Source: a virus
IMG/VR virus record: IMGVR_UViG_3300042879_006196
Coordinates: 186,001 to 250,000 of that record
DNA: 64,000 bases
Direction: 5' to 3' (one strand)
Position 1 is the stretch's first letter, and every line of letters begins with the position of its first letter. Below the pieces are notes generated by a model. That model was not told where the DNA came from and did no database searches. It saw nothing but the letters and a program-made list of their open reading frames with translations. Made by a program: the position numbers and the translations under genes. Shown here one piece after another: positions 6,801-46,687 of the stretch.

Positions 6801-8849
6801 ACAGGAACATTTGTATTTAGGTTTGATTCTGGCGTGGCAGGTAATGCAACTTTTGATAATGTCATCTATTCATTTGCCACTCCATACTCACCAAAAGGAA
6901 CATCAAGTATACAATTTTATTACAGAGTTGATGATACACTAGATCAATTGAATTTAGATTCTTATACTTTGAATCCATTGTATCCTATCTCAGGTGGAAG
7001 TTATAACATTAATAAAACTGGGCGATATATTGACTTGGTGTTTATTCTTAATGCAGCAAGTGTGGATCAGCTTGCAGCCCCTGTAATTAGCAGTATAGCT
7101 TTGAATTATAGTGTTTATGGAAAAGCCACTGGAATTATTTACGATACCAATGTAAATAATGCACCACAAGGTTTGTATCCGAGATTGAAATGGACACAAG
7201 GTGAAAGTTCAAACATCAGCATAGTGCCAGTGCCAAATGATAACAATCAATCATATCAAATTGAGATAGAAGACACAGCTAACATTGGCAAATACATTTA
7301 TTTATCCACAAACAACCTAGAACTAACAGATTCTTCAGACACAACAGGATTCGTAGACATCAACAACAATCTTTACTTGTCGCCTTATCAAGCTTTCGCA
7401 GAACTAGATGCTGGTCTTTTGAATCCACAGCATTTCTATTCAAATGGACAATCTGGATATTTCATTGCTGACACTGACAATGATAGAGTTATTGAAGTGG
7501 ATTCAACTGGAGCGGCTACAAGAGCTATTCAAGGGAATATTAAGCTTCCAAGATGTGATCGCGCTTTTGCTATTTTAGGGGTTTTTTATAACACAAATAC
7601 ACGTCAGCTTTATGCCACTTTTAGCCAATATTTAATATTTGCTGCTGACTACTTACAATCTTTATCGGTTTCTATAAATGGTGTTTCTTATTCTTTAACA
7701 AATTCTGCTTATTTTGATCAAAATAATGTTGGACTGTTTTCTGTAAATTCTAATAATCAATCGGCAACATTCTATGTCACTGTTACTAGAACAATGGATG
7801 CTTTACTTACAGAGAATCCATATGATGCAAGATTTGAAATACAAAACCCTGCAACTAATCCTCCATTTTTGTTACCAACCACAGGCAGAAGTGATGGAAA
7901 TCAACCTGAAAATGAAACTTTAACTTACACCACTTCTCAGTTTGATGAGTTTACATCGAACAGCGCTCTTGGCTTAGGAACTATTCTAGACTACACATCT
8001 AATGTTGTAGTGAATGTAGTTGATCCAGTGACATTTGGTACAGCTACAGAAACATCAACAGAACTTTGGAGTTATTGGCAAGGCACAAATCAATTCCCTA
8101 ATTACTCAAACTTTTATTCTATACCAATACAAGTTTTTCCAATTTACTTTGATAACATATTTAAGCCTTTACATGTTGATTACACAGAAGCTGGTGCTTT
8201 AGTGATTTCTACCGTTGGAAACAATGCAATTAGAGCGTATAACGAAAACTTTGTTCTGGGATACAAGATTAGCCTTTCAAGTTTTACTTTTAACGAAAAA
8301 CTTGGAGGCTCCACTGTTGTATTAGATAGAGCCGCAGATGAAAGCGGAAATGTATTGCTTGTGGCACAACCAGGTATTTCCACAGACAACATCACTGGAA
8401 AAGCAATCATTTATAATCGAAATTCTGGTTCATTAGTGAATCAATATACTTTCAGTAATTTTGATGCTGTTAAAGCATACTCTGAAGATGATGGATATTT
8501 GATATTGCTTAATGATAGATTAGGCGGAATTAGATCTAAATTGGTAAAAGTTGGTCAAGATGGCTCTAATCAATATACATTAAGTAATGCATTTTCTAGA
8601 CCTGTCTCATTAGAAATAAAAGAAAATGGATATTATTATGTTACAGATTTAACTGGTCAATATGGAACTATTTTCTTTAGAACATTCGTTGCCGATGGTT
8701 CAGGAAATTCTACTGGCTCAAGTTCTTCGGGAGGTGGCGGTTCAACAGGTGGAGGAAACGCAGGTGGTGGAATTATCGGTGGCACAACAGGAGGAACATC
8801 AGGAGGCTCAACAGGCGGAGGCAACATTATAGGTGGTGGTGGTGGTTAA
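3804..8849 (+). CDS. Giant tail-fibre/baseplate protein with NHL beta-propeller, 1681 aa
   Basis: Residues 1-50 form an N-terminal module (TPIYQLGYFIPNMTIGNDLD then RFTTIENQLYNVYNIFGNG) that recurs at the start of the 3069 aa protein at 31034, suggesting a common attachment site on the virion. Around residue 182 is an HKHIGGLNNPSPIDLS motif, also shared, followed by fibre-type turns (VTSGTLSANRLP). Residues about 380-770 carry NHL-type propeller repeats, each with a signature such as LYIADTYNHRI, FYVADSGNNQI, FVSDYNNHRV, ITDTDNNRI and FVADSLNNRV; a further copy (FIADTDNDRVIEVD) is near residue 1210. The C-terminal 50 residues are Gly/Ser-rich and end in a GGT codon run. No enzyme motif was seen. 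Likely role: host-surface recognition or tail-tip decoration. Confidence 0.65.
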   Translation: MNQTPIYQLGYFIPNMTIGNDLDLDKNRFTTIENQLYNVYNIFGNGVLTKFDENGKQIPSWNLSAVPSQKTIRVSDGKGHVNYKYAETSDFVDVNLILPGSATSGTFIYYFYAVQNVNTPVDKSVNFTFSLTQINDPTNYIGLGAAELTLNTDGSFTLVAYNDVEHGRQEISLFSSLTGLVKNHKHIGGLNNPSPIDLSKHVTGFLSADNIEGLDLSRVTSGTLSANRLPVIDHNTLTNIGTLTHEQIDALLASLQYPDQNYSLSDYGIVNRLQIVLALKKQSGFFNIDGEQINSIFYVPYAQMDKFVDYTNTTALINTELHRVYGTTGLARQSNVIKVDTTQDFKTALFYAEDSIPNPTVSNIEVTGVTTTPVAGTLNIPYGLTGSANTIYISSAQDSFVSSFSTTGVYRNRRIDFDSNLNLNSPLGLWFDNVKNYLYIADTYNHRIIVTDSNFSSVIAKVGANNASGVPGSGNGVGFNYPKGVFGLGNTFYVADSGNNQIQKYSWSGGVPVYQRTYKYSDSTILGLNQSLNDPRGLIATSFRGNNYLFVSDYNNHRVLCGIETNNKYSVYQILGGNSGGFGIFNTSLITYNASSSVTGIGASFTFNSSFNGVIRSIGVSSSGAGYSNNDSFILKYNGNQNGLFNVLTDGAGRITTAFVSYGINTANIFGFDHPQGLAINGIGSRLDMLITDTDNNRIINYRSVVGVGTTSGQFVYSYNIGTSGSLGISSLSIYMQRPAGVYAQQGFSTIFVADSLNNRVHSLATSFANNSIGGITTFTFGIGDTSLTSGGITLTKPISYLGISTPSVAGSATAGWFVGEQIAQGTQFQSDSIDRYSYVTFSTKTLTIQDTIAVSIATLNETTERTLGQISCYLIFADNFSGGTLIPFSLSNNTNRNSIKISEKIYTIRLNGSTTSQFYDFADLTLFTEQPNPSIIGFGFKWSTSTGWTNNDSYQLGWYLPQFSTQLLQTNYPKVLAYRQANGLQNSIFAFNANRYAGTGTFVFRFDSGVAGNATFDNVIYSFATPYSPKGTSSIQFYYRVDDTLDQLNLDSYTLNPLYPISGGSYNINKTGRYIDLVFILNAASVDQLAAPVISSIALNYSVYGKATGIIYDTNVNNAPQGLYPRLKWTQGESSNISIVPVPNDNNQSYQIEIEDTANIGKYIYLSTNNLELTDSSDTTGFVDINNNLYLSPYQAFAELDAGLLNPQHFYSNGQSGYFIADTDNDRVIEVDSTGAATRAIQGNIKLPRCDRAFAILGVFYNTNTRQLYATFSQYLIFAADYLQSLSVSINGVSYSLTNSAYFDQNNVGLFSVNSNNQSATFYVTVTRTMDALLTENPYDARFEIQNPATNPPFLLPTTGRSDGNQPENETLTYTTSQFDEFTSNSALGLGTILDYTSNVVVNVVDPVTFGTATETSTELWSYWQGTNQFPNYSNFYSIPIQVFPIYFDNIFKPLHVDYTEAGALVISTVGNNAIRAYNENFVLGYKISLSSFTFNEKLGGSTVVLDRAADESGNVLLVAQPGISTDNITGKAIIYNRNSGSLVNQYTFSNFDAVKAYSEDDGYLILLNDRLGGIRSKLVKVGQDGSNQYTLSNAFSRPVSLEIKENGYYYVTDLTGQYGTIFFRTFVADGSGNSTGSSSSGGGGSTGGGNAGGGIIGGTTGGTSGGSTGGGNIIGGGGG

Positions 8850-10695
8850 TTTCATTTATCCAAAAAAAAATAATGTTTTTAAAGCCTCGCAATATTCAAC
8901 CCAATCAGTGTTTAATGATTTGCCGAAGTATTCAATATCCGTATATGATGATGCAAATTTCATTTACAAAAGACAATCACAAAATGGAAATCAAATCCTT
9001 TCTAACATAATCTCAGATGATTTATTCCCTGATGATTCTAATCAAGAATCAAAAACAAGATACTTAACAGGCAGAGGCACAAATTCTAAAATATTTTATC
9101 TTAAAGTGCTTGTAAATAAACCTGTGCCACAAGACACTCCTGGAAACTATTCAACTATTTTTTATTTAGCTAAAACACAAATATTTGGCGCGGTTTCTAC
9201 AGTATATTATTCATTAAGATGTATTGAAAAGAATCAAAACTACACTGCTTACACATCAGTGATAACAATTAAAAAATCAGATTTTATTTCTCAATTTGAT
9301 GGAAAAATATTTCTTAATCTTGTTGGTGATTATGATGTTTCTGTAAAATTTCCAATTGATTTACAAATTAATAATTCAGCTTCTACTTCAATAAGCCAAA
9401 TAAGTAGTGCAACACCTCAAACTTTAAGCTCCACTACAAATAATTCAGCATATTTTCAGACATACCCAGTGAGCTTTTCTTACTACGAATATTCTGATAG
9501 TCAAGATTTTAATTTTACTTACACAAACTTAGTGCTTACAAATAGTTTATTTTCCACTGCTAACACAATAATTAATTCAAATGTAAGCACAGGTATCTCA
9601 CTTAGGTTTACTTTTTCAGGCGTATATAATATTTCTGACTTTAGTTATTTTGGCTTGACCATTCAAAATACCGATCCATCTTATAATCCCAACGTTGACA
9701 CAATCTTCAAAATTGTTTTTAGAACAGTGGAAGACGAAGTGATAAGTGTAGAAGATTGCTCTATCTTGAATAATCTTAATTCTGGATATTACAATGTAGT
9801 GTTCAAACTCAAAAATATAGACACAAATCTTAATAATCTAAATTACATGCTGATACAAATAATAAGCACAAGAACATTAACACAAAACTACAGTATTACA
9901 TATATCAATTTTATGACAGCTATCACTGCTGGTGCTTTTTCTGTAAAATCGCTGCAAAACAATACACAAGAGGAAAATTTTACTAAAGATCCATTCGATA
10001 AAATACAATATATTGATAATTTAAAAAATCAAGAATTAATTAAAAGCACTGCTTTATTTACCACTGTCGAAAGCTTAATTGAAATAGGGGATGAAGTAGT
10101 TTATGAAATAACAACACAATCTGGAAAAATTTATTTACCAGAAAATGCTATGATATTTACTAGCAATGATTTTTTACCAGCATATTCTTTGGAGCAAGAC
10201 GTTTTAATTTTAGAAAATGATTCTTTCATGCCTATCACTTCAATAAAAATAATGCCTCCAAGAAAAGTGAAAATGATAGATATTTATGAGAATGCTGATT
10301 ATATTTTGAATGGATTTTATGTTAAGAACCCACTGTTTATAAAAAGTTTTCAAAGAATTTTTCTTGAAAGAATTGAAACTAGAAAACAAAATAAAAGTTT
10401 TTCAATAAATGATGAAAAATACTTTTTATTAGAATCAGAAGATTTTCAATATTTTTCAAATGAAATTGTTTTGAAAAAAGGCAATCATATAATTGAGTTT
10501 TCTCCTTCGACAATTTATGCATCGATTTTAATTAGTGGTAATTCTGAAATTGTTGTTCAATCAAAAATTAAACAAAAAGTAGTGGGACAAAATCAAAAAT
10601 TGCAATTAGATATAGATAATAAAAATTTTTTAATATATCTAAAAAGTAATAGCACAATAACTATACACAAACTAATATGTAAACATGAGAGTTAA
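8833..10695 (+). CDS. Fibre-module protein with decayed Hint-like region, 620 aa
   Basis: The frame opens on a run of GTG codons (8833, 8836, 8839, 8842) inside the Gly-run end of the upstream gene, overlapping it by up to 17 nt. No ATG occurs for hundreds of codons, so translation needs a GTG start or a frameshift from the upstream gene. The protein is beta-rich and looks like a tandem paralogue of the next protein. Residues about 414-501 (EIGDEVVYEITTQSGKIYLP through PPRKVKMIDIYENADYILNG) align by eye with the Hint domain of that protein but lack the leading Cys and the conserved His, so the domain looks catalytically dead. It ends with an 11-nt overlap into the next gene. Structural role inferred from context. 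Confidence 0.5.
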   Translation: MVVVVNFIYPKKNNVFKASQYSTQSVFNDLPKYSISVYDDANFIYKRQSQNGNQILSNIISDDLFPDDSNQESKTRYLTGRGTNSKIFYLKVLVNKPVPQDTPGNYSTIFYLAKTQIFGAVSTVYYSLRCIEKNQNYTAYTSVITIKKSDFISQFDGKIFLNLVGDYDVSVKFPIDLQINNSASTSISQISSATPQTLSSTTNNSAYFQTYPVSFSYYEYSDSQDFNFTYTNLVLTNSLFSTANTIINSNVSTGISLRFTFSGVYNISDFSYFGLTIQNTDPSYNPNVDTIFKIVFRTVEDEVISVEDCSILNNLNSGYYNVVFKLKNIDTNLNNLNYMLIQIISTRTLTQNYSITYINFMTAITAGAFSVKSLQNNTQEENFTKDPFDKIQYIDNLKNQELIKSTALFTTVESLIEIGDEVVYEITTQSGKIYLPENAMIFTSNDFLPAYSLEQDVLILENDSFMPITSIKIMPPRKVKMIDIYENADYILNGFYVKNPLFIKSFQRIFLERIETRKQNKSFSINDEKYFLLESEDFQYFSNEIVLKKGNHIIEFSPSTIYASILISGNSEIVVQSKIKQKVVGQNQKLQLDIDNKNFLIYLKSNSTITIHKLICKHES

Positions 10696-13600
10696 TTTTC
10701 AAGCAAACAAAAATGATGTCAATCTTCTGATTAATGATCAGATTGTGTGTTCGTTTGTTAATTCAAAAATTTTATCAGAAAATACCATTCAATCTGGTGA
10801 AATATCAATCACTTTTGATGTGTCTCAAAATATTATTAATTTCAATTTAGAAAGCAAAAATTTTGAAATTTTATCAATGAAATTTGATTCAATTAAACTT
10901 TTAAAATCAAACAGATACTATTGTGATTTTGGAAATTCTTTAATAGAAATAGATTGTGAAAAAGCTACTTTAATAGCCAATACAAATCTTGTGATAGGTT
11001 TTTCTGGATTTCATAAATTTTCTTACGAAGTAAAAGAGTCATTTTATACATCTAGCTACAGACAACTTTCAGCATCAAGCGATTTAGTTTACAGTAAAGA
11101 AGCCCCTAGTTTTTCAATTACATTTTATAGAGATTTTCAAAACAACAACTTTAGCACTTTGTTTGACTCTTATAAAGACATTCAAATATTGTCGCTTGCT
11201 AATGCAAACTCCACAGAACAACCAAATAGCGCAGTAATTTATGTCAAAATTATATCTTCGAAAATAGATACTTATCCTGCAGTTTCTTTTCCTTTAACAC
11301 CTCAACAGGCAAGCCCAGTTTACACTCTTGCTGTATATTCTGAATATTACACTAATAAAAATAATAAACGTGTTGTACCTATCTATAAACTTTATAACAC
11401 AAACGAAGGAAGTGTATATTTAGCTGAATTTACATTAGAAAATTCTAATTACATTAATTTATTTGATGGAACCAGGCAATTTTTTGTTGAAGTTACAAAG
11501 TTCATTTACAATGGTTATTTGAATGTGAAAACAGAAATTAACGGAGGAACTCAAACAACTTCACCACAATCTAGCATCACTTCTAGTTCATCTACATTAT
11601 CTAGTATTCCATCTCAAAATTGTTGTTTTCAGTTTTACACTGGCTCATTGCCATACTATACCGCAAACTGGAGCAATACAACCTACACTTATGATATAGG
11701 TCGTTTATTGTGTGATTTTTCAATTCCAGAAACAACCACTTATCAAAGCACAAGTTTTGCCACGTCTTCAAACACACTTTTCTATAATGGATCTAATTTT
11801 ATAGGCATCAATGCTAAATATGATTTTTCCAATTTTTCATATAAAAATTATGAATGGATTTCATTATTTTTTGTCTCTTTAGATGATTTAACTAACGCCA
11901 CTATTAATAAAAATCTTTACTATTTAGAGGTACTATATTATTATGTGGAAATAAATCAACCAGATAAATTTGTTTTTTGTATGGACGACGCAAATATAAT
12001 CAATTTTGGGTCAAACTATGGATTACAAGCTTTCTTTGATTTCAATAAATATCTCAGAAAAAATGCAGCTAGTCCAGTTACTTTAAAAACAATTGAAATA
12101 CAATTGCAAAAATCAACTAATGTATTTCCGAATGAGTTTAGGTTATATGATTTTAAGCTATTTACAATTTATTGTGGTGGTCTGCCTAAAAAATATGATA
12201 TTGCTGTTAATGCGTTTGATAAAAATAGCTTAGATGAATTAGAAGCTTTAATCACCAATAGTCCTGCAGATAACAATTTAAATTCTTCTGGGCTTACGCC
12301 TTTCACAAGAAATTTTAATAATGCAACTAATGCTTCATTTACGGCATCAAGCGGACTATGGAAAAACTTAACAGACGGAATTTCTAGAAATTACACATTT
12401 GAATATTGGGTACTCAACAATATTACAGATAACAAAATTTATCAAAACACTTACACAATTGGAGTAAATGCTGATTATATGCTAAGTGCATATTTTTCTT
12501 TGCAATCAGATTCTTCTAGTAGTTCATCTAGTAGCTCATGTGTAGTTTATGGAACAAAAATACACACATCAATAAATGAAACTATTAATGTTGAAAACTT
12601 GAAAGTTGGAGATTACGTATTAGGACTAAATGGTTCAAATAATTTTACAAAATATAAAATTACAAAAATTTCAGAATCTCACTCTGAGCAAATTTATAAA
12701 TTATCTTTTTCTAATAATACATTAGAGTGTTCTGAATCACATTGCGTATTTAGCCCATTAGATTCTGGTTTTAAACAATCGCTTGAACTTAACACAAACA
12801 AAATTTTAAAATGCATTGATAAAAATCATAAAATTGATACAATTGAAATTTTGCCACCTAAAAAAGTAGTGAAACTAGAATTACAAAACAATGGTTGTTA
12901 TTTTGCAAATGGTGTGTTATCTCATTCACAAGATAAACATCCAGATTTTGTTGCTTTTGCTAAAAATCAATATAGAGCGATGAGCAATACTTATGTTGAA
13001 TTTTTGAAATATGGAGATACAACCTGGATCCCACCAAGTGGAATTAATTATTTGAAAATTGAATGTATAGGTGCAGGAGGCTTTTCAAGTTCTACAGCTG
13101 GAGGCGATGGTGGAGACTACTCCATGATTGAGTTTAATAATATATTCCCTGAATTTCCTACATTTGCATCAATTACATTTACAATAGGAGAAAATCCTTA
13201 TGCAATTCCAACATCCTTTATAGCTACATGGGACATAGGTTCTGGTCTTAATCAGTTTTGGGTAGCAGCAAGTTCAGGAGGTGGTATTGGAGGAGATACT
13301 GGCTACTATGGAAGTCCGCCCAATTTAATGTCTTTAGCAAATGGCAAAAGACATTTTGGAGGAAAAGGGGCAACTTTAGATTCTGGCACAGGCTTAGGTG
13401 GGGGTGGCGCAGCTGGCAAAAATGGAAATGGTGAAAGCGGGGGAGATTCTGTTAACTTTAATACTTGGTGGGGTGGTGCTTCAGGGGGAGGAGCATCAAC
13501 TCAAACACAAAGACTTCCTGGAAATCCAGGTGTGGAATACACCGCAAATGCTGGAAAATATGCTGGAGAACAAGCAGGATCTGGTGGAGGCGGAGCAGGT

Positions 13601-14530
13601 CTAATTCAAGGATTATCTTATGGAGGACTTTATGGAGGGGGGCAAGGTAGTTATCCACCATCTGGAATTCCAACGCTAAGCTCATACGGGATCATAATCA
13701 TTACATATAGAATTGGAAGTGAATCTAGTAGCTCTTCATCAACTAAGTCTTCAACTAGCAGTTCAAGCACGTCTGGCTCTACAGGGTCTTCAACTTTTTC
13801 TACACCAAGTAGCTCATCTACAAGTGGCTCATCTACAAGTGGATCATCTACAAGCGGTTCATCTACAAGCGGTTCATCTACAAGCGGTTCATCCACAAGT
13901 AGTTCGCCTCCAAGTAGTTCTTCCAGCTCAAGCTCCGCAACCACGTCTAGTTCTAGTTCAAGTGAGACATCGGTTACATCCCCTAGCACACCTCCAAGCT
14001 CAACCACTAGTTCAGATACTGGATCTTCCACTACTTCAAGTGCAACCAGTAGCATAACAGATTCTGGTTCTGGTTCAATGCCGCCTCCATCTATTCTTGC
14101 ATTAAAATCTGAAAATCAAGTAATGTTTAGTGCTTCAAATAATTATCAAACGCTTTGGAAATATTTAATTTCAAGTGTTTGGAAAAAACCTTTACTTTTT
14201 TCAACCGCAAGCCTTGATTCATTTAATGGCTATGTGTTTGATAATGAATCAAAAATAATGTTCAAATTTATAATTGATATTGAAAGTTATACTGACATTA
14301 TAAACTTTGTTATTATATCTGAAAAAGACAACTTTAATATTGAAAATCAAAATTTCACAACAAAAGATACAATCTCAACAAACAACAAAAATGTAAAAAT
14401 TATATGTTGCCCAAAAAATCCAGAAATTATATTTACACTTCACTCAGAAGAGCCAAACACAATCTATGGTTTTTTTGCCTTGGATGATTCAGAATTAGAT
14501 TCATTCATACTAAATCTTCAAGGTAATTGA
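10685..14530 (+). CDS. Tail-fibre protein with internal Hint domain and glycine-rich adhesin-like region, 1281 aa
   Basis: Residues 1-610 are beta-rich and resemble the preceding 620 aa protein. A short poly-Ser run leads to a Hint domain at about 619-748: Cys619 starts CVVYGTKIHTS, followed by NLKVGDYVLGLNG, the block-B-like LECSESHCVF with His686, and the end NGCYFANGVLSHS. Residues about 765-1010 form a glycine-rich domain that opens TTWIPPSGINYLKIECIGAG, like the glycine-rich tip domains of phage adhesins. Residues about 1015-1135 are a Ser/Thr-rich linker with tandem TSGSS units, followed by a 145-residue C-terminal domain. Likely a receptor-binding fibre that may be autoprocessed at Cys619. 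The usual C-terminal Asn of inteins is Ser748 here, so complete splicing is doubtful. Confidence 0.65.
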   Translation: MRVNFQANKNDVNLLINDQIVCSFVNSKILSENTIQSGEISITFDVSQNIINFNLESKNFEILSMKFDSIKLLKSNRYYCDFGNSLIEIDCEKATLIANTNLVIGFSGFHKFSYEVKESFYTSSYRQLSASSDLVYSKEAPSFSITFYRDFQNNNFSTLFDSYKDIQILSLANANSTEQPNSAVIYVKIISSKIDTYPAVSFPLTPQQASPVYTLAVYSEYYTNKNNKRVVPIYKLYNTNEGSVYLAEFTLENSNYINLFDGTRQFFVEVTKFIYNGYLNVKTEINGGTQTTSPQSSITSSSSTLSSIPSQNCCFQFYTGSLPYYTANWSNTTYTYDIGRLLCDFSIPETTTYQSTSFATSSNTLFYNGSNFIGINAKYDFSNFSYKNYEWISLFFVSLDDLTNATINKNLYYLEVLYYYVEINQPDKFVFCMDDANIINFGSNYGLQAFFDFNKYLRKNAASPVTLKTIEIQLQKSTNVFPNEFRLYDFKLFTIYCGGLPKKYDIAVNAFDKNSLDELEALITNSPADNNLNSSGLTPFTRNFNNATNASFTASSGLWKNLTDGISRNYTFEYWVLNNITDNKIYQNTYTIGVNADYMLSAYFSLQSDSSSSSSSSSCVVYGTKIHTSINETINVENLKVGDYVLGLNGSNNFTKYKITKISESHSEQIYKLSFSNNTLECSESHCVFSPLDSGFKQSLELNTNKILKCIDKNHKIDTIEILPPKKVVKLELQNNGCYFANGVLSHSQDKHPDFVAFAKNQYRAMSNTYVEFLKYGDTTWIPPSGINYLKIECIGAGGFSSSTAGGDGGDYSMIEFNNIFPEFPTFASITFTIGENPYAIPTSFIATWDIGSGLNQFWVAASSGGGIGGDTGYYGSPPNLMSLANGKRHFGGKGATLDSGTGLGGGGAAGKNGNGESGGDSVNFNTWWGGASGGGASTQTQRLPGNPGVEYTANAGKYAGEQAGSGGGGAGLIQGLSYGGLYGGGQGSYPPSGIPTLSSYGIIIITYRIGSESSSSSSTKSSTSSSSTSGSTGSSTFSTPSSSSTSGSSTSGSSTSGSSTSGSSTSGSSTSSSPPSSSSSSSSATTSSSSSSETSVTSPSTPPSSTTSSDTGSSTTSSATSSITDSGSGSMPPPSILALKSENQVMFSASNNYQTLWKYLISSVWKKPLLFSTASLDSFNGYVFDNESKIMFKFIIDIESYTDIINFVIISEKDNFNIENQNFTTKDTISTNNKNVKIICCPKNPEIIFTLHSEEPNTIYGFFALDDSELDSFILNLQGN
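12539..12928 (+). other. Hint (intein/hedgehog-like) domain coding segment
   Basis: This segment encodes about 130 residues, the size of a Hint domain without a homing endonuclease. Visible family features are a leading Cys619 after poly-Ser, a TKIHT strand, an LKVGDYV motif, His686 in a block-B-like context and a final GVLSHS resembling the intein C-terminal block with Asn replaced by Ser. Such features allow N-S acyl shift and thioester cleavage in bacterial intein-like and hedgehog domains; whether it is active here cannot be seen. Confidence 0.6.
13820..13909 (+). repeat. 15-nt tandem repeats encoding TSGSS
   Basis: Six successive 15-nt units, the first reading ACAAGTGGCTCATCT, with later units differing at wobble positions and the last diverging. 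They encode a flexible Ser/Thr/Gly linker between the glycine-rich domain and the C-terminal domain of the fibre protein. Coding repeat, not a regulatory iteron. Confidence 0.75.
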
Positions 14531-40275: not shown

Positions 40276-41202
40276 ATGTCTAATCCAATTAAATTCATTC
40301 CAGATTTAAGAGATAAAATTTTAAATCAAGTTTCTATTCTGAATGAGCAACAGAATTGGGGGCTATCTTTTATTGAAGCTTCTTATGCTTGGCAACATTC
40401 AAAAGGAGAAGATGTAAAGGTGGCAATAATAGACACAGGATGGTTTCCTCACAAAGATTTACAAGTGAATTTTTTAGATGGGTATGATGCCACTGGCAAT
40501 AATGATTTTATGGATCATGGCTCATATCATGGCACACATGTGGCTGGAATAGTTGGTGCTAATTGTGGGCAAAATATTGGCGTAATGGGTGTTGCGCCAA
40601 GCTGTAAACTTATTCCCATAAAGGCACTTGATGATGATGGCACTGGTTCATTTGATTTCATTGCAAACGCTTTACAAATCGCACACGACTTAGATGTAGA
40701 TATAATCAATATGTCTCTTGGAACAGAATCCGATTATGGTCAAAGCAAAGTACATTCATTGATAAAAGATATAACAGCAAAGGGCAAGATTGTGGTTTGT
40801 GCTAGTGGGAATGATGGAGAAGATGTAAACTTTCCAGCAAAATATGATGAATCAATTGCTGTGGCAGCTGTTGAAAATGATGGAAAATTGGCTCGTTTTT
40901 CTTCGAGAGGTCCTGAGCTTGATGTTGCGGCACCTGGTGTAAAAATTTATTCTACTTGGGGAAACAATCAATATGTGAATCTTGATGGCACATCTATGGC
41001 TTGTCCAACTATTTCTGGAATAATTGCATTGATAATTTCTTGGTATAAAAAAAATCCAGACCCAAATTTTCAAATAAATTTCACGAACATGATCAAACTT
41101 ATGTATGATTTAGGTGGACCAGAAGGTGACCATATTGTACAACAAGGATCGTATAATATTGGAGTGCCTAAATTACAAAATTTTAATCCTTGGAAAAATT
41201 AA
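40276..41202 (+). CDS. Subtilisin-family (S8) serine protease, 308 aa
   Basis: A complete S8 protease domain with the full catalytic set: Asp53 in VAIIDTGWFPH, His85 in HGTHVAG, oxyanion Asn179 in VVCASGND and Ser240 in GTSMACP. There is no signal peptide and no evident propeptide; only about 45 residues precede the catalytic core, so it is probably cytoplasmic or virion-associated rather than secreted. It begins 32 nt after the 3069 aa fibre gene and just before an HtrA-like protease. Possible jobs are maturation of fibre or other virion proteins, or degradation of host proteins; the sequence does not decide between them. The ATG at 40276 lacks a Shine-Dalgarno sequence. Confidence 0.9.
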   Translation: MSNPIKFIPDLRDKILNQVSILNEQQNWGLSFIEASYAWQHSKGEDVKVAIIDTGWFPHKDLQVNFLDGYDATGNNDFMDHGSYHGTHVAGIVGANCGQNIGVMGVAPSCKLIPIKALDDDGTGSFDFIANALQIAHDLDVDIINMSLGTESDYGQSKVHSLIKDITAKGKIVVCASGNDGEDVNFPAKYDESIAVAAVENDGKLARFSSRGPELDVAAPGVKIYSTWGNNQYVNLDGTSMACPTISGIIALIISWYKKNPDPNFQINFTNMIKLMYDLGGPEGDHIVQQGSYNIGVPKLQNFNPWKN

Positions 41203-41204
41203 CA

Positions 41205-41825
41205 ATGTCAGAAAAAGTAACAGATAGAATACAAGAAGTGATTGCACAATCTGTGCCTGCCTCATGCACTATATTTGTAAAAACAAGAAAACAATCTTGG
41301 TCAGGAAGCGGCTTTCACATAGGAAATGGCTATGTTGTTACTGCTTCACATGTTGCACCTGAAGAATTAATGTCCAGTGGAGACGTAAAAGTAACTTTTG
41401 ATGGTTCATTATTATTGGATTGTTCAGTTTTCAAATCAGATCCTAATATAGACGCGGCTATTTTAAAAATTGAATCAGATTGGTCAAATATTCCTTCTGT
41501 AGTTTTAGCAAACTCAGACGCTGTTGAATTGGGTGAAACTGTTGCAGTTATAGGCGCGCCAGAAATGTTTCATGACACAGTAACGGTTGGAAGAGTAAGC
41601 AATACAGATCAATCACTAGGAGATGCCGCCCCATCTCCAGCTTGGAATAATATAATGTTTGTTGATGCAAAAATCATACAAGGAGTAAGCGGCGGAATGT
41701 GCGTTGGCACAGATGGTCTTGTAATTGGTTCAGTAATTGGAGTCACAGGGATGCTTGCAGAATATGGTGTAGGTGAGAATGTTATTTGTCCTTCCAATAA
41801 AATAATTAATCTTTTGAAAAGTTAA
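41205..41825 (+). CDS. HtrA/trypsin-like serine protease, 206 aa
   Basis: A chymotrypsin-fold protease resembling the protease domain of HtrA/DegP without PDZ domains. The triad is visible: His49 in VVTASHV, Asp83 in NIDAAILKIE, and Ser162 in QGVSGGM; GSGFHIGNGY precedes the His, as in the family. No signal peptide is seen, so it probably acts inside the cell or in the virion. I chose the ATG at 41205, 2 nt after the subtilisin stop, over an in-frame TTG at 41190. It follows the S8 protease and precedes dnaJ, suggesting a proteostasis group. Substrates are unknown. Confidence 0.85.
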   Translation: MSEKVTDRIQEVIAQSVPASCTIFVKTRKQSWSGSGFHIGNGYVVTASHVAPEELMSSGDVKVTFDGSLLLDCSVFKSDPNIDAAILKIESDWSNIPSVVLANSDAVELGETVAVIGAPEMFHDTVTVGRVSNTDQSLGDAAPSPAWNNIMFVDAKIIQGVSGGMCVGTDGLVIGSVIGVTGMLAEYGVGENVICPSNKIINLLKS

Positions 41826-41829
41826 TTAG

Positions 41830-41835
41830 TATAAT
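41830..41835 (+). promoter_or_regulatory. TATAAT element before dnaJ
   Basis: TATAAT (preceded by G) lies 6 nt before the dnaJ ATG, immediately after the HtrA-like stop codon. If it is a -10 element the transcript would be nearly leaderless. Part of a recurring TATAAW pattern in this window. Confidence 0.35.
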
Positions 41836-41841
41836 ATCTAT

Positions 41842-42798
41842 ATGGATTATTATTCAATACTTGAATTAGATAGAACGGCGTCTCCCGAAGATATCAAAAA
41901 ATCTTACAGAAAACTAGCAAAACAATATCATCCAGATGTAAACCCCAACGATCCAATATCTGAGGAAAAATTTAAACAAGTAAGTGAAGCATATGAAGTT
42001 CTTTCAGATGAACAAAAAAAACACAACTATGATACTTATGGTAATGTAAATGGTGGGGGTTTTACTGATTTTGGTTTCAATATCAATTTTGATCCTGGTT
42101 CAATATTTGAAGAATTTTTTGGACCCAGGAGGCAACCTGAAAGAAATACTGATCTGCAAATTGAATTGCAATTACAATTAAAGGATTTTGTTAAAGGCTG
42201 CGTTCATACTGTCAAAATCAATAAAAGAAAAAAATGCCTTGATTGTGACGGATTAGGGGGATTTGATTTCAATGCATGCCCTGACTGCAATGGCTCTGGC
42301 ATGATTCAACATTCCAGTTTTAACCATATGTTTTTTGTTCAAACATCTCCTTGTGGCAGATGTAGTGCCAAGGGCAAAATTCCACAAAGACAATGTGATA
42401 AATGTAACGTTACTGGATTCATTAATTACGTTTCAGAAATTAATATCAATATTCCTGAAAATTGTCCAATATTTGCTACTTTACAACTTCAAGGTCAAGG
42501 TAATCAAGAAAAAAATAATTTACCTCCTGGAAATTTGTTTGTAAGACTTGTTCCAGTCTCAAACGGCTTTGAAGTAGATCATGAGGGCAACGTTAAGTTG
42601 ATCAAAGAAATTAATTTGCAAAATTGGGTAAATAACGAAGAAATTTCAATTGATAGATTTGGAATAGAAGCATTCAAATTTTCATTGTATAATTTAAGTA
42701 GCTCTGATAGTCAAATCAAATTTGATGGGATGGGCGCAAAGAATGCAAATAACAGCCGCCAAGGTGACTTTATAGTAGCATTCAGAATAACTAAATAA
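41842..42798 (+). CDS. dnaJ: DnaJ (Hsp40) co-chaperone, 318 aa
   Basis: Full DnaJ architecture: J-domain at residues 1-70 with HPD at 30-32 ([12 protein letters not shown]), a short Gly/Phe region, and a zinc domain at about 130-200 with four Cys motifs ([36 protein letters not shown]), followed by the C-terminal substrate-binding region. It is somewhat shorter than the usual 370-380 residues. The protein would stimulate the ATPase of DnaK; a phage DnaK is encoded at 45062, with three genes in between. No grpE is seen. Probably helps fold long fibre proteins or supports replication, as host DnaJ does for some phages; the target is unknown. Confidence 0.92.
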
Positions 42799-45061: not shown

Positions 45062-46687
45062 ATGGGAATATTTATTGGCTGTGATTTAGGCACAACAAAT
45101 TCTGTTGTTTGCTTTAAAAATTCAAAAAATGAATTTGAATTTGTTAAAGATGAATCAGGAAACAAACTTATTCCATCTGTAGTTTGCTATGCTGATGAGC
45201 TATATGTTGGTAGAGAAGCGGTTGAAAATGAAGAAAATTTTCCTGAAAAAACTATAAGATCTTCTAAAAGATTTATTGGTAATAATAATTCTGATTATGA
45301 CGCAACAGAAGTTGCCAAGCATATCTTAGAGTATTTAAAAAGCATAACAGAATCTCACTCAAAAGAAGCAATTGAAGGCTTAGTAATCACTGTGCCAGCT
45401 TATTTTAATCAAAATCAAAGATTAGAAACTAAAAAAGCTGCTGAACTAGCTGGTTTTAAAGTCTTAAGAATTATTAATGAGCCTACCGCTGCCGCCTTAG
45501 CATACGGGGAAGACACTAACTTAAATGAACTTGTTCTTGTGTACGATTTGGGAGGTGGCACTTTCGATGTAACACTGTTACAGTTATCTGATGATAAAGT
45601 TTATCAGGTGTTAGCGACTTCAGGAAATACAAAACTTGGAGGAGATGATTTTGATAATTTGTTAGTAAATTACATTATTGGCGAGATACCACATCATTTC
45701 AATGAATTTAAAGATTTTCAAGTTAGGCTTAAAAAATTTGCCGAAGAAATAAAAATACAATTAAATTATAAATCTAAGGTGAGCAAAACTTTAAAATATT
45801 GTGGATTATTACATGGTAAACTTTATCATCACAAAGTAGAAATATTAAAAGAAGATTATGAAAAAATGATTCATCCTCTATTACTCAAAACAAAATCTCA
45901 TGTTTTGACAGCTTTAAACGATGCAGACAAAAAAATATCTAATTTGTCTAAAATTATTTTAGTTGGTGGCTCAACAAAATCAAAAATTGTTAGAGAATTT
46001 GTTGAAAAAGAATTTAACACAAAAGTCTTTTATGAAATTGACCCAGATTTAACTGTGAGCGCTGGAGCTGCAAATTTAGCTCACTCTATCGCCGTTAAAA
46101 ACGCTGACAGTGCCATTCTTGTAGATGTCACTCCACTATCACTTGGAATTGAAACTAAAGGGGGATTGTTGAATAAAATTATTCCTAGAAATACGAATGT
46201 ACCAGTAAGTGCTGCGCAAGACTTTATAACAGCAGAAGATAACCAAGAATCTGTGAATATCAAAATTTATCAAGGTGAAAGACCTCTTGCCAAAGATAAT
46301 GAGTTTCTTGGTGAGTTTGTGTTAAGTGGATTTGAAAAACGACCAAAAGGGCAAACAAAAATTGTTGTTAAGTTTGATATTGATGCATCGGGTTTAATTA
46401 CTGTCACTGCTTTTGATAAAATTTCAGGCTTACAGTCTGAAGTCACGTTAAAATCCTTGACTTCAGAAAAAACAAATGAGTTGCTTGATAATATTGAAGC
46501 AAGCTTACATGATGACAAAAAAATACTAGAAAAAATTGAATTAGAAGAATTAAGACAAGAAGCAAAAACTCTTATGCTAACACAAAGTATATTAAATAAA
46601 GATGAAGATTTAGAATCCACTTATGATGCTGTAAAAGATAATCTTGTTGCCCTAAAAGTTTTCATACAATCGTTAAACAATGCATAA
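45062..46687 (+). CDS. dnaK: DnaK (Hsp70) chaperone, short form, 541 aa
   Basis: ATP-dependent chaperone. Nucleotide-binding motifs are present: GCDLGTTNS, SSKRFIG, NEPTAAALAYG, YDLGGGTFDVTLL, LVGGSTKSKIV and SAGAANLAHS. The linker and start of the substrate domain are clear (ILVDVTPLSLGIET). It is about 100 residues shorter than E. coli DnaK: subdomain IIB (near 200-280) is reduced and the lid at the C-terminus is short (about 75 residues). It would work with the phage DnaJ at 41842 and perhaps the J-protein at 55014; no grpE is seen, so host GrpE may be used. The last 8 nt overlap rnhB. Confidence 0.93.
   Translation: MGIFIGCDLGTTNSVVCFKNSKNEFEFVKDESGNKLIPSVVCYADELYVGREAVENEENFPEKTIRSSKRFIGNNNSDYDATEVAKHILEYLKSITESHSKEAIEGLVITVPAYFNQNQRLETKKAAELAGFKVLRIINEPTAAALAYGEDTNLNELVLVYDLGGGTFDVTLLQLSDDKVYQVLATSGNTKLGGDDFDNLLVNYIIGEIPHHFNEFKDFQVRLKKFAEEIKIQLNYKSKVSKTLKYCGLLHGKLYHHKVEILKEDYEKMIHPLLLKTKSHVLTALNDADKKISNLSKIILVGGSTKSKIVREFVEKEFNTKVFYEIDPDLTVSAGAANLAHSIAVKNADSAILVDVTPLSLGIETKGGLLNKIIPRNTNVPVSAAQDFITAEDNQESVNIKIYQGERPLAKDNEFLGEFVLSGFEKRPKGQTKIVVKFDIDASGLITVTAFDKISGLQSEVTLKSLTSEKTNELLDNIEASLHDDKKILEKIELEELRQEAKTLMLTQSILNKDEDLESTYDAVKDNLVALKVFIQSLNNA

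Follow-up and report, generated by a model that had tools for sequence, protein, structure and literature searches.

An internal intein-like Hint domain in a putative phage fibre protein may be limited to the N-terminal half of splicing chemistry

The window is a 64,000-nucleotide stretch (positions 186001-250000) of the 347 kb virus record IMGVR_UViG_3300042879_006196. It includes a 1281-aa open reading frame (ORF) that comprises, from N- to C-terminus, a beta-rich domain, a poly-Ser linker, a Hint domain, a glycine-rich domain, a Ser-rich linker and a C-terminal domain (Table 1). The Hint domain is internal, with 533 residues coming after its end. Few recognisable structural families are found in the surrounding gene cluster, and a tblastn search of phages with the whole protein returned zero matches. 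Gene context, the Gly- and Ser-rich composition and a few weak matches to structural proteins suggest that the 1281-aa protein has a role in a fibre.

Table 1. Positions of the Hint protein, its parts and related genes. Positions are those of the window unless a contig is named.
Feature	Position	Strand	Remarks
620-aa ORF, probable paralogue	8833..10695	+	weakly related N-terminal part and degenerate Hint
Degenerate Hint, residues about 412-499	10066..10329	+	BLASTP, hhalign, low-confidence AlphaFold2 model
1281-aa ORF	10685..14530	+	uninterrupted
Nine-serine linker, S610-S618	12512..12538	+	ends at predicted scissile bond Ser618-Cys619
Hint domain, residues 619-748	12539..12928	+	AlphaFold2 model; Foldseek to BIL2 6y75; tblastn to the relative's copies
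Cys619, predicted N-S acyl-shift nucleophile	12539..12541	+	first Hint residue; kept in orthologue (Cys1351)
Block B motif CSESHC, residues 682-687	12728..12745	+	6/6 identical in orthologue
Block G motif LSHSQ, residues 745-749	12917..12931	+	5/5 identical in orthologue
Glycine-rich domain, residues 777-989	13013..13651	+	Pfam PF21722 Gly_rich_2, E 6e-4, below gathering score
C-terminal domain, residues 1140-1281	14102..14527	+	partly conserved in orthologue, 29% identity
1971-aa orthologue, fibre-like	L020:2397-8312 of IMGVR_UViG_3300042691_050360		three tandem Hint copies
Third Hint protein, 317 aa, outside the window	G000:C1 about 263873-264826 (L030:5874-6827)		PT-HINT E 2e-15

A first-pass annotation had placed a Hint domain at 12539-12928, which corresponds exactly to residues 619-748, and the landmarks that it listed (Cys619, LKVGDYV, His686 within CSESH at 682-686, and a GVLSHS end) are all read in the translation at those places. 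The family match is weak by sequence alone and strong by structure. Pfam Intein_splicing was matched with an E-value of 0.004, under the curated cut-off, Hint_2 with 0.12 and NCBIfam TIGR01445 (intein_Nterm) with 0.013; the NCBIfam scan gave no match to TIGR01443 (intein_Cterm). By phmmer, the domain matched the sequence of the bacterial-intein-like (BIL) domain BIL2 crystal structure with an E-value of about 4e-4. The top phmmer match, the surface anchored protein 4mkm, was rejected, its best domain having an i-Evalue of 0.56 and missing both ends of the Hint. An AlphaFold2 model, built from a four-sequence alignment of the window Hint and three homologous copies from a related virus, has a pLDDT of 91.7 and a pTM of 0.87. 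Its best PDB match by Foldseek is BIL2 of Tetrahymena thermophila BUBL1 (6y75, E 6e-11, TM 0.85-0.87), followed by the Clostridium thermocellum BIL 2lwy (E 5e-9); the gp41-1 intein 6riz (E 7e-8) and hedgehog 1at0 (E 5e-6, TM 0.78) are also matched. NrdJ-1, gp41-1 and DnaB inteins rank just behind the BILs. A comparison of a predicted structure with Hint folds, which the annotation had proposed as a check, has thus returned a Hint, and we regard the fold of residues 619-748 as established as far as prediction reaches.

The model has the horseshoe-shaped all-beta fold of the HINT superfamily, and the domain possesses the N-terminal nucleophile (Cys619) and the block B [T/S]xxH motif of that superfamily, of which the modelled domain is a member. 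Block B reads Ser683-x-x-His686 where Thr-x-x-His is expected. In block G, the penultimate His747 is kept, Ser748 takes the place of the terminal Asn, as the annotation had claimed (L745-S746-H747-S748-Q749), and Gln749 is the +1 residue. The block F Asp position is occupied by Lys in the window Hint and by Gly in the orthologue. Class 1 inteins are characterized by a C-terminal His-Asn, a +1 Cys, Ser or Thr, and a conserved insertion site, with flanks that make up a single domain once the intein is excised. Here the end is His747-Ser748, the +1 residue is Gln in both viruses, and the insertion site does not fit that description since the Hint has the poly-Ser linker on one side and a Gly-rich region, which is variable, on the other, and the flanks differ in the orthologue. 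Type A BILs keep the C-terminal His-Asn (PMC4031507), unlike the His-Ser of the window Hint. Type B BILs have no similarity to intein block G and cleave without coupled splicing (PMC4031507), and the NGVLSHS end of the window Hint resembles block G, with its His and without its Asn. BIL domains in general sit in hypervariable regions of non-conserved proteins (PMC7765530). The window Hint has such a location, because the region between the N- and C-terminal domains is wholly different in the orthologue whereas the flanking genes are 67% and 60% identical. The hedgehog (Hog) domain shares the fold and performs the N-S shift only; in contrast, the window protein has no recognised sterol-recognition region, its Hint being followed by the Gly-rich domain, and carries Lys at the block F Asp position. 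A Pfam scan of the 1281-aa ORF found neither a hedgehog family nor a toxin family of the kind that accompanies PT-HINT in polymorphic toxins. Judged by its residues, the window Hint is predicted to work most like a B-type BIL or a hedgehog Hint, yet block G is retained.

Scans of IMG/VR viral contigs used as queries the 1281-aa protein, the Hint by itself, the orthologue and neighbouring proteins. The sole relative found is IMGVR_UViG_3300042691_050360 (166.5 kb), in which gene order is identical; the scan of genome contigs gave no relatives. Between the window and this relative, the higher of the two flanking-gene identities belongs to an NHL-repeat protein and the lower to a 4138-aa protein, over the compared part. 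The Hint protein and its orthologue share 42% identity over the N-terminal 606 residues and less over the C-terminal domain, and their middle regions are entirely different. The residue that precedes the scissile bond is Ser in the window protein versus Phe in the orthologue, which counts against cleavage at this bond. The orthologue harbors its three Hint copies at a spacing of exactly 477 nt, and the window Hint matches the three by tblastn with E-values of 6e-34, 3e-17 and 4e-6. Copy 1 has Cys1351, CSESHC and LSHSQ, the same as the window Hint. In copy 2, a Ser stands roughly where Cys would be, SESH has become SENY, and LSHCD is found in place of LSHSQ. In copy 3, an N-terminal nucleophile is not clearly recognisable, SKAC replaces SESH, and the end is LVHNN. 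Within the array, Cys and SxxH together are confined to copy 1 and the C-terminal His-Asn to copy 3.

The window Hint and copy 1 are 41% identical. All catalytic positions, Ser748 included, are identical between the two (5/5), which would occur with a probability of 0.011 under random placement of 41% identity. The three longest identical runs are CSESHC in block B, NNGCY in block F and LSHSQ in block G. Runs as long as these are not rare in themselves (for the two longest, P 0.14); the argument is therefore about where they lie, in one sequence pair only. Because copy 1 keeps the same Ser, Ser748 would not be a product of random decay. Copies 2 and 3 have lost Cys and SxxH and copy 1 has kept them; thus, the N-side chemistry looks selected where the Hint adjoins the N-terminal part. 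Cys, His and Gly are conserved for structural reasons in many proteins, and conservation here is that of one orthologue.

The adjoining 620-aa ORF contains a degenerate Hint that corresponds to the last two-thirds of the window Hint (BLASTP E 1e-4; hhalign probability 88%, E 3e-6). This domain is without the Cys strand, the block B His and the block G His, and its end reads NGFYVKN-P. Its AlphaFold2 model is of low confidence (pLDDT 54); the better-predicted part has its strands ordered as in a Hint, and inteins are among its matches with an rmsd of about 2.5 over about 90 residues, which is supportive only. The two ORFs show weak relatedness over their N-terminal halves (E 2e-4, probability 44%) and no detectable relation between their C-terminal domains. 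The two ORFs are probably paralogues, one with an intact Hint and the other with a decayed one. The degenerate Hint is kept in the relative's orthologue of this ORF too. Judging from these genes, Hints seem to persist here without their catalytic residues, which is an argument against catalysis. The Hint of the 1281-aa protein could likewise have been retained as a structural or spacer module of the fibre, its catalysis gone. With dead copies conserved next door and in the relative's array, and with the block F Asp and the terminal Asn missing from the window copy itself, this is a serious alternative. We nevertheless consider it somewhat unlikely, since both viruses have kept Cys, SxxH and the penultimate His in the Hint that sits beside the N-terminal part, whereas the degenerate copies have lost them, and these motifs are the most conserved stretches of the Hint pair.

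In class 1 inteins, an N-S shift is followed by transesterification to the +1 residue, Asn cyclisation and an acyl shift; hedgehog proteins perform the first step only (PMC7664689, PMC4031507). We propose, at a probability of about 0.5, that residues 619-748 form a bacterial-intein-like Hint that does only the N-terminal half of this reaction. Cys619, aided by Ser683 and His686, would attack the Ser618-Cys619 peptide bond to give a thioester. With Ser748 where Asn stood, no cyclisation would take place, leaving the thioester to react with water, with a thiol, or with an amine of a virion protein nearby. The N-terminal 618 residues would then be cut from a fragment that holds the Hint and the Gly-rich region (residues 619-1281), or be handed to another protein. 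As the N-terminal part is present in the relative too, it is probably the part used in assembly. Catalysis, the resolution step, its timing and the role of the Hint in the fibre are inferred. In favour of this reading are the intact N-side motif together with a match to intein_Nterm and none to intein_Cterm, the flexible nine-serine linker that ends at the predicted cut, and the recurrence of linker-Cys-Hint layouts in unrelated phage proteins. The changes from Thr to Ser in block B and from Asp to Lys in block F mean that the chemistry could be slow or absent. Splicing by a known route is not expected from these residues, and the annotation's view that hedgehog- or BIL-like cleavage or ligation at the N-terminal side is likelier than clean splicing agrees with the kept N-side residues and the lost Asn. 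The probable outcome is thus that a portion of a viral fibre is set free or joined on, and not that the Hint excises itself.

The domain might also splice or cleave at both ends in a non-canonical way, for example through cyclisation of Gln749, and so join or separate its flanks. Such a route fits the SHSQ sequence that is identical in the orthologue; there is also a report of a phiCbK gene whose intein ends in Gly-Gln (PMC3556154), and a +1 nucleophile is dispensable for splicing by type A BILs (PMC4031507). We judge it very unlikely. Gln749 lies one residue past the normal position, so that His747 is not penultimate to it, and its +1 residue would be Asp750, which is not a nucleophile used by inteins. 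The lack of an intein_Cterm match also speaks against this route, as does the position of the Hint between linkers and not inside a conserved domain that would need rejoining.

BIL2, the closest structural match, does not perform ordinary intein splicing but moves its N-flank onto a lysine as an isopeptide (PMC8616854). Its structures (6y75, 6tmm) and that of the 2lwy BIL share their fold with the window Hint (TM 0.84-0.87) and keep the block B His. The window Hint might accordingly serve mainly as a covalent coupler that places the N-terminal part on a lysine of another fibre subunit and cross-links the appendage, the absence of a terminal Asn leaving the thioester to wait for its acceptor. 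As a principal function this seems unlikely to us. BIL2 has a C-terminal Asn (it was crystallised as C1A-N143A) where the window Hint has Ser748, so the match concerns the fold and not an identical active site. Identity is about 20%, and BIL2 and 2lwy are hosted by polyubiquitin or a bacterial protein, as opposed to a phage structural protein. If the Hint is active in N-terminal cleavage or transfer, fibre maturation would include an autoprocessing step that relies on the chemistry of inteins or hedgehog proteins, where S74-type cleavage by an intramolecular chaperone is the better-known route, and a virion might gain a covalent cross-link. The triple array of the orthologue, with its distributed catalytic residues, would be a natural experiment on the change of a Hint from splicing to cleavage or ligation.

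The annotation had considered a Hint in a fibre cluster unusual, a view that the following precedents do not support. At marginal E-values, tblastn with the window Hint reaches, in Erwinia jumbo phages, a virion structural protein of 478 aa. Its collagen-like repeats are succeeded by a C-terminal Hint that shows Cys, THEHP and His-Asn-Thr; about 10 more residues complete the protein. Matches to this protein occur in 61 phage records, and in 54 of these at least 80% of its length is covered. The records are mainly of Erwinia, Dickeya (AD1) and Yersinia phages; Alcaligenes phages and Salmonella Sen-NF also contribute. C-terminal Hints on collagen-like tail or virion proteins are found in Erwinia SNUABM_7, Alexandra, Y3 and Yoloswag, Dickeya AD1, Yersinia fHe-Yen9-02, Alcaligenes Afa-NA1 and NCTB; the host phages are mostly large. 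Three Hint genes lie in the fibre cluster of NCTB, where they bear an intein-domain annotation; they encode a tail protein, a Hint that stands alone and has apparently lost its block B His, and a 1303-aa protein. The Erwinia-type and window Hint families are related by profile-profile comparison (E 2e-6), and the Erwinia group starts with a C[VI][VI][YF]G[ST] type of sequence, as does the window Hint. The Erwinia-type Hints have Thr-x-x-His, a terminal His-Asn, a +1 Thr, Val, Met or Ala and only about 10 further residues, whereas the window Hint is internal, ends in His-Ser and has a long C-terminal extension. Matches of the Hint query in phage recombinase, helicase, terminase and reductase genes were set aside, as they are not close relatives. 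Inteins are common in these genes.

In Dickeya JA29 and its relatives, the homologue of the 478-aa protein (L010:2489-3463) ends with ITARNPK just before the Hint boundary, the next gene lying 10 bp downstream, which suggests that the Hint-less product is the working form in Erwinia-type phages. A scan of IMG/VR with the Erwinia-type Hint revealed more fibre-like proteins in which Cys directly follows a Gly/Ser/Pro linker, with layouts such as (GPGGS)n-SN-Cys...HND...(GS)n and PPSGGG-GC...LTHNLKM-stop. Fibre-like proteins at L055-L057, L058 and L059 carry the Hint between Gly/Ser/Pro-rich linkers or at the C-terminus. Their linkers stand right before Cys as in the window protein, and their Hints keep TPEHP and the terminal His-Asn and are 28-29% identical to the Erwinia-type query. 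Among the viral fold matches are also proteins of uncultured phages whose names refer to fibronectin, collagen and PASTA domains. The phiCbK and CBB papers report inteins or Hints in terminase and reductase, not in fibres, and a jumbo-phage review mentions the S74 autopeptidase and no Hint in fibres; no description of Hint domains in phage fibre-like proteins was found in a literature search of limited open-access coverage. A Hint in fibre-like phage proteins is thus a recurring architecture, annotated yet apparently without a description, already present at the C-terminus of collagen-like tail proteins in more than 50 sequenced phage records, and the internal His-Ser Hint is a variant of it. 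It is conceivable, if rather doubtful, that linker-embedded Hints in phage fibre clusters are cassettes for release or coupling timed to assembly; the first copy of an array would cleave at its N-terminal side, the last would cleave through Asn, dead copies would be structural partners, and the window protein, with its single Hint, would represent the N-only type.

Inspection also suggests that the virus encodes two proteases, one subtilisin-like and the other trypsin-like, together with DnaJ, DnaK and a GroEL-like chaperonin (40276-42798, 45062-46687 and L030:8231-9850); the proteases that adjoin the structural cluster could also process fibres. A Ruminococcus phage protein (L031:4491-5789) has PT-HINT and, after it, an EndoU nuclease domain, which is the arrangement of a polymorphic toxin carried by a phage genome. 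Finally, the 317-aa protein encoded outside the window has a Hint with Ser1, TFNH and a VHN end followed by Val, which looks like an insertion in a beta domain. The segment N-terminal to this Hint bears a weak similarity to phage tail tubular protein A.
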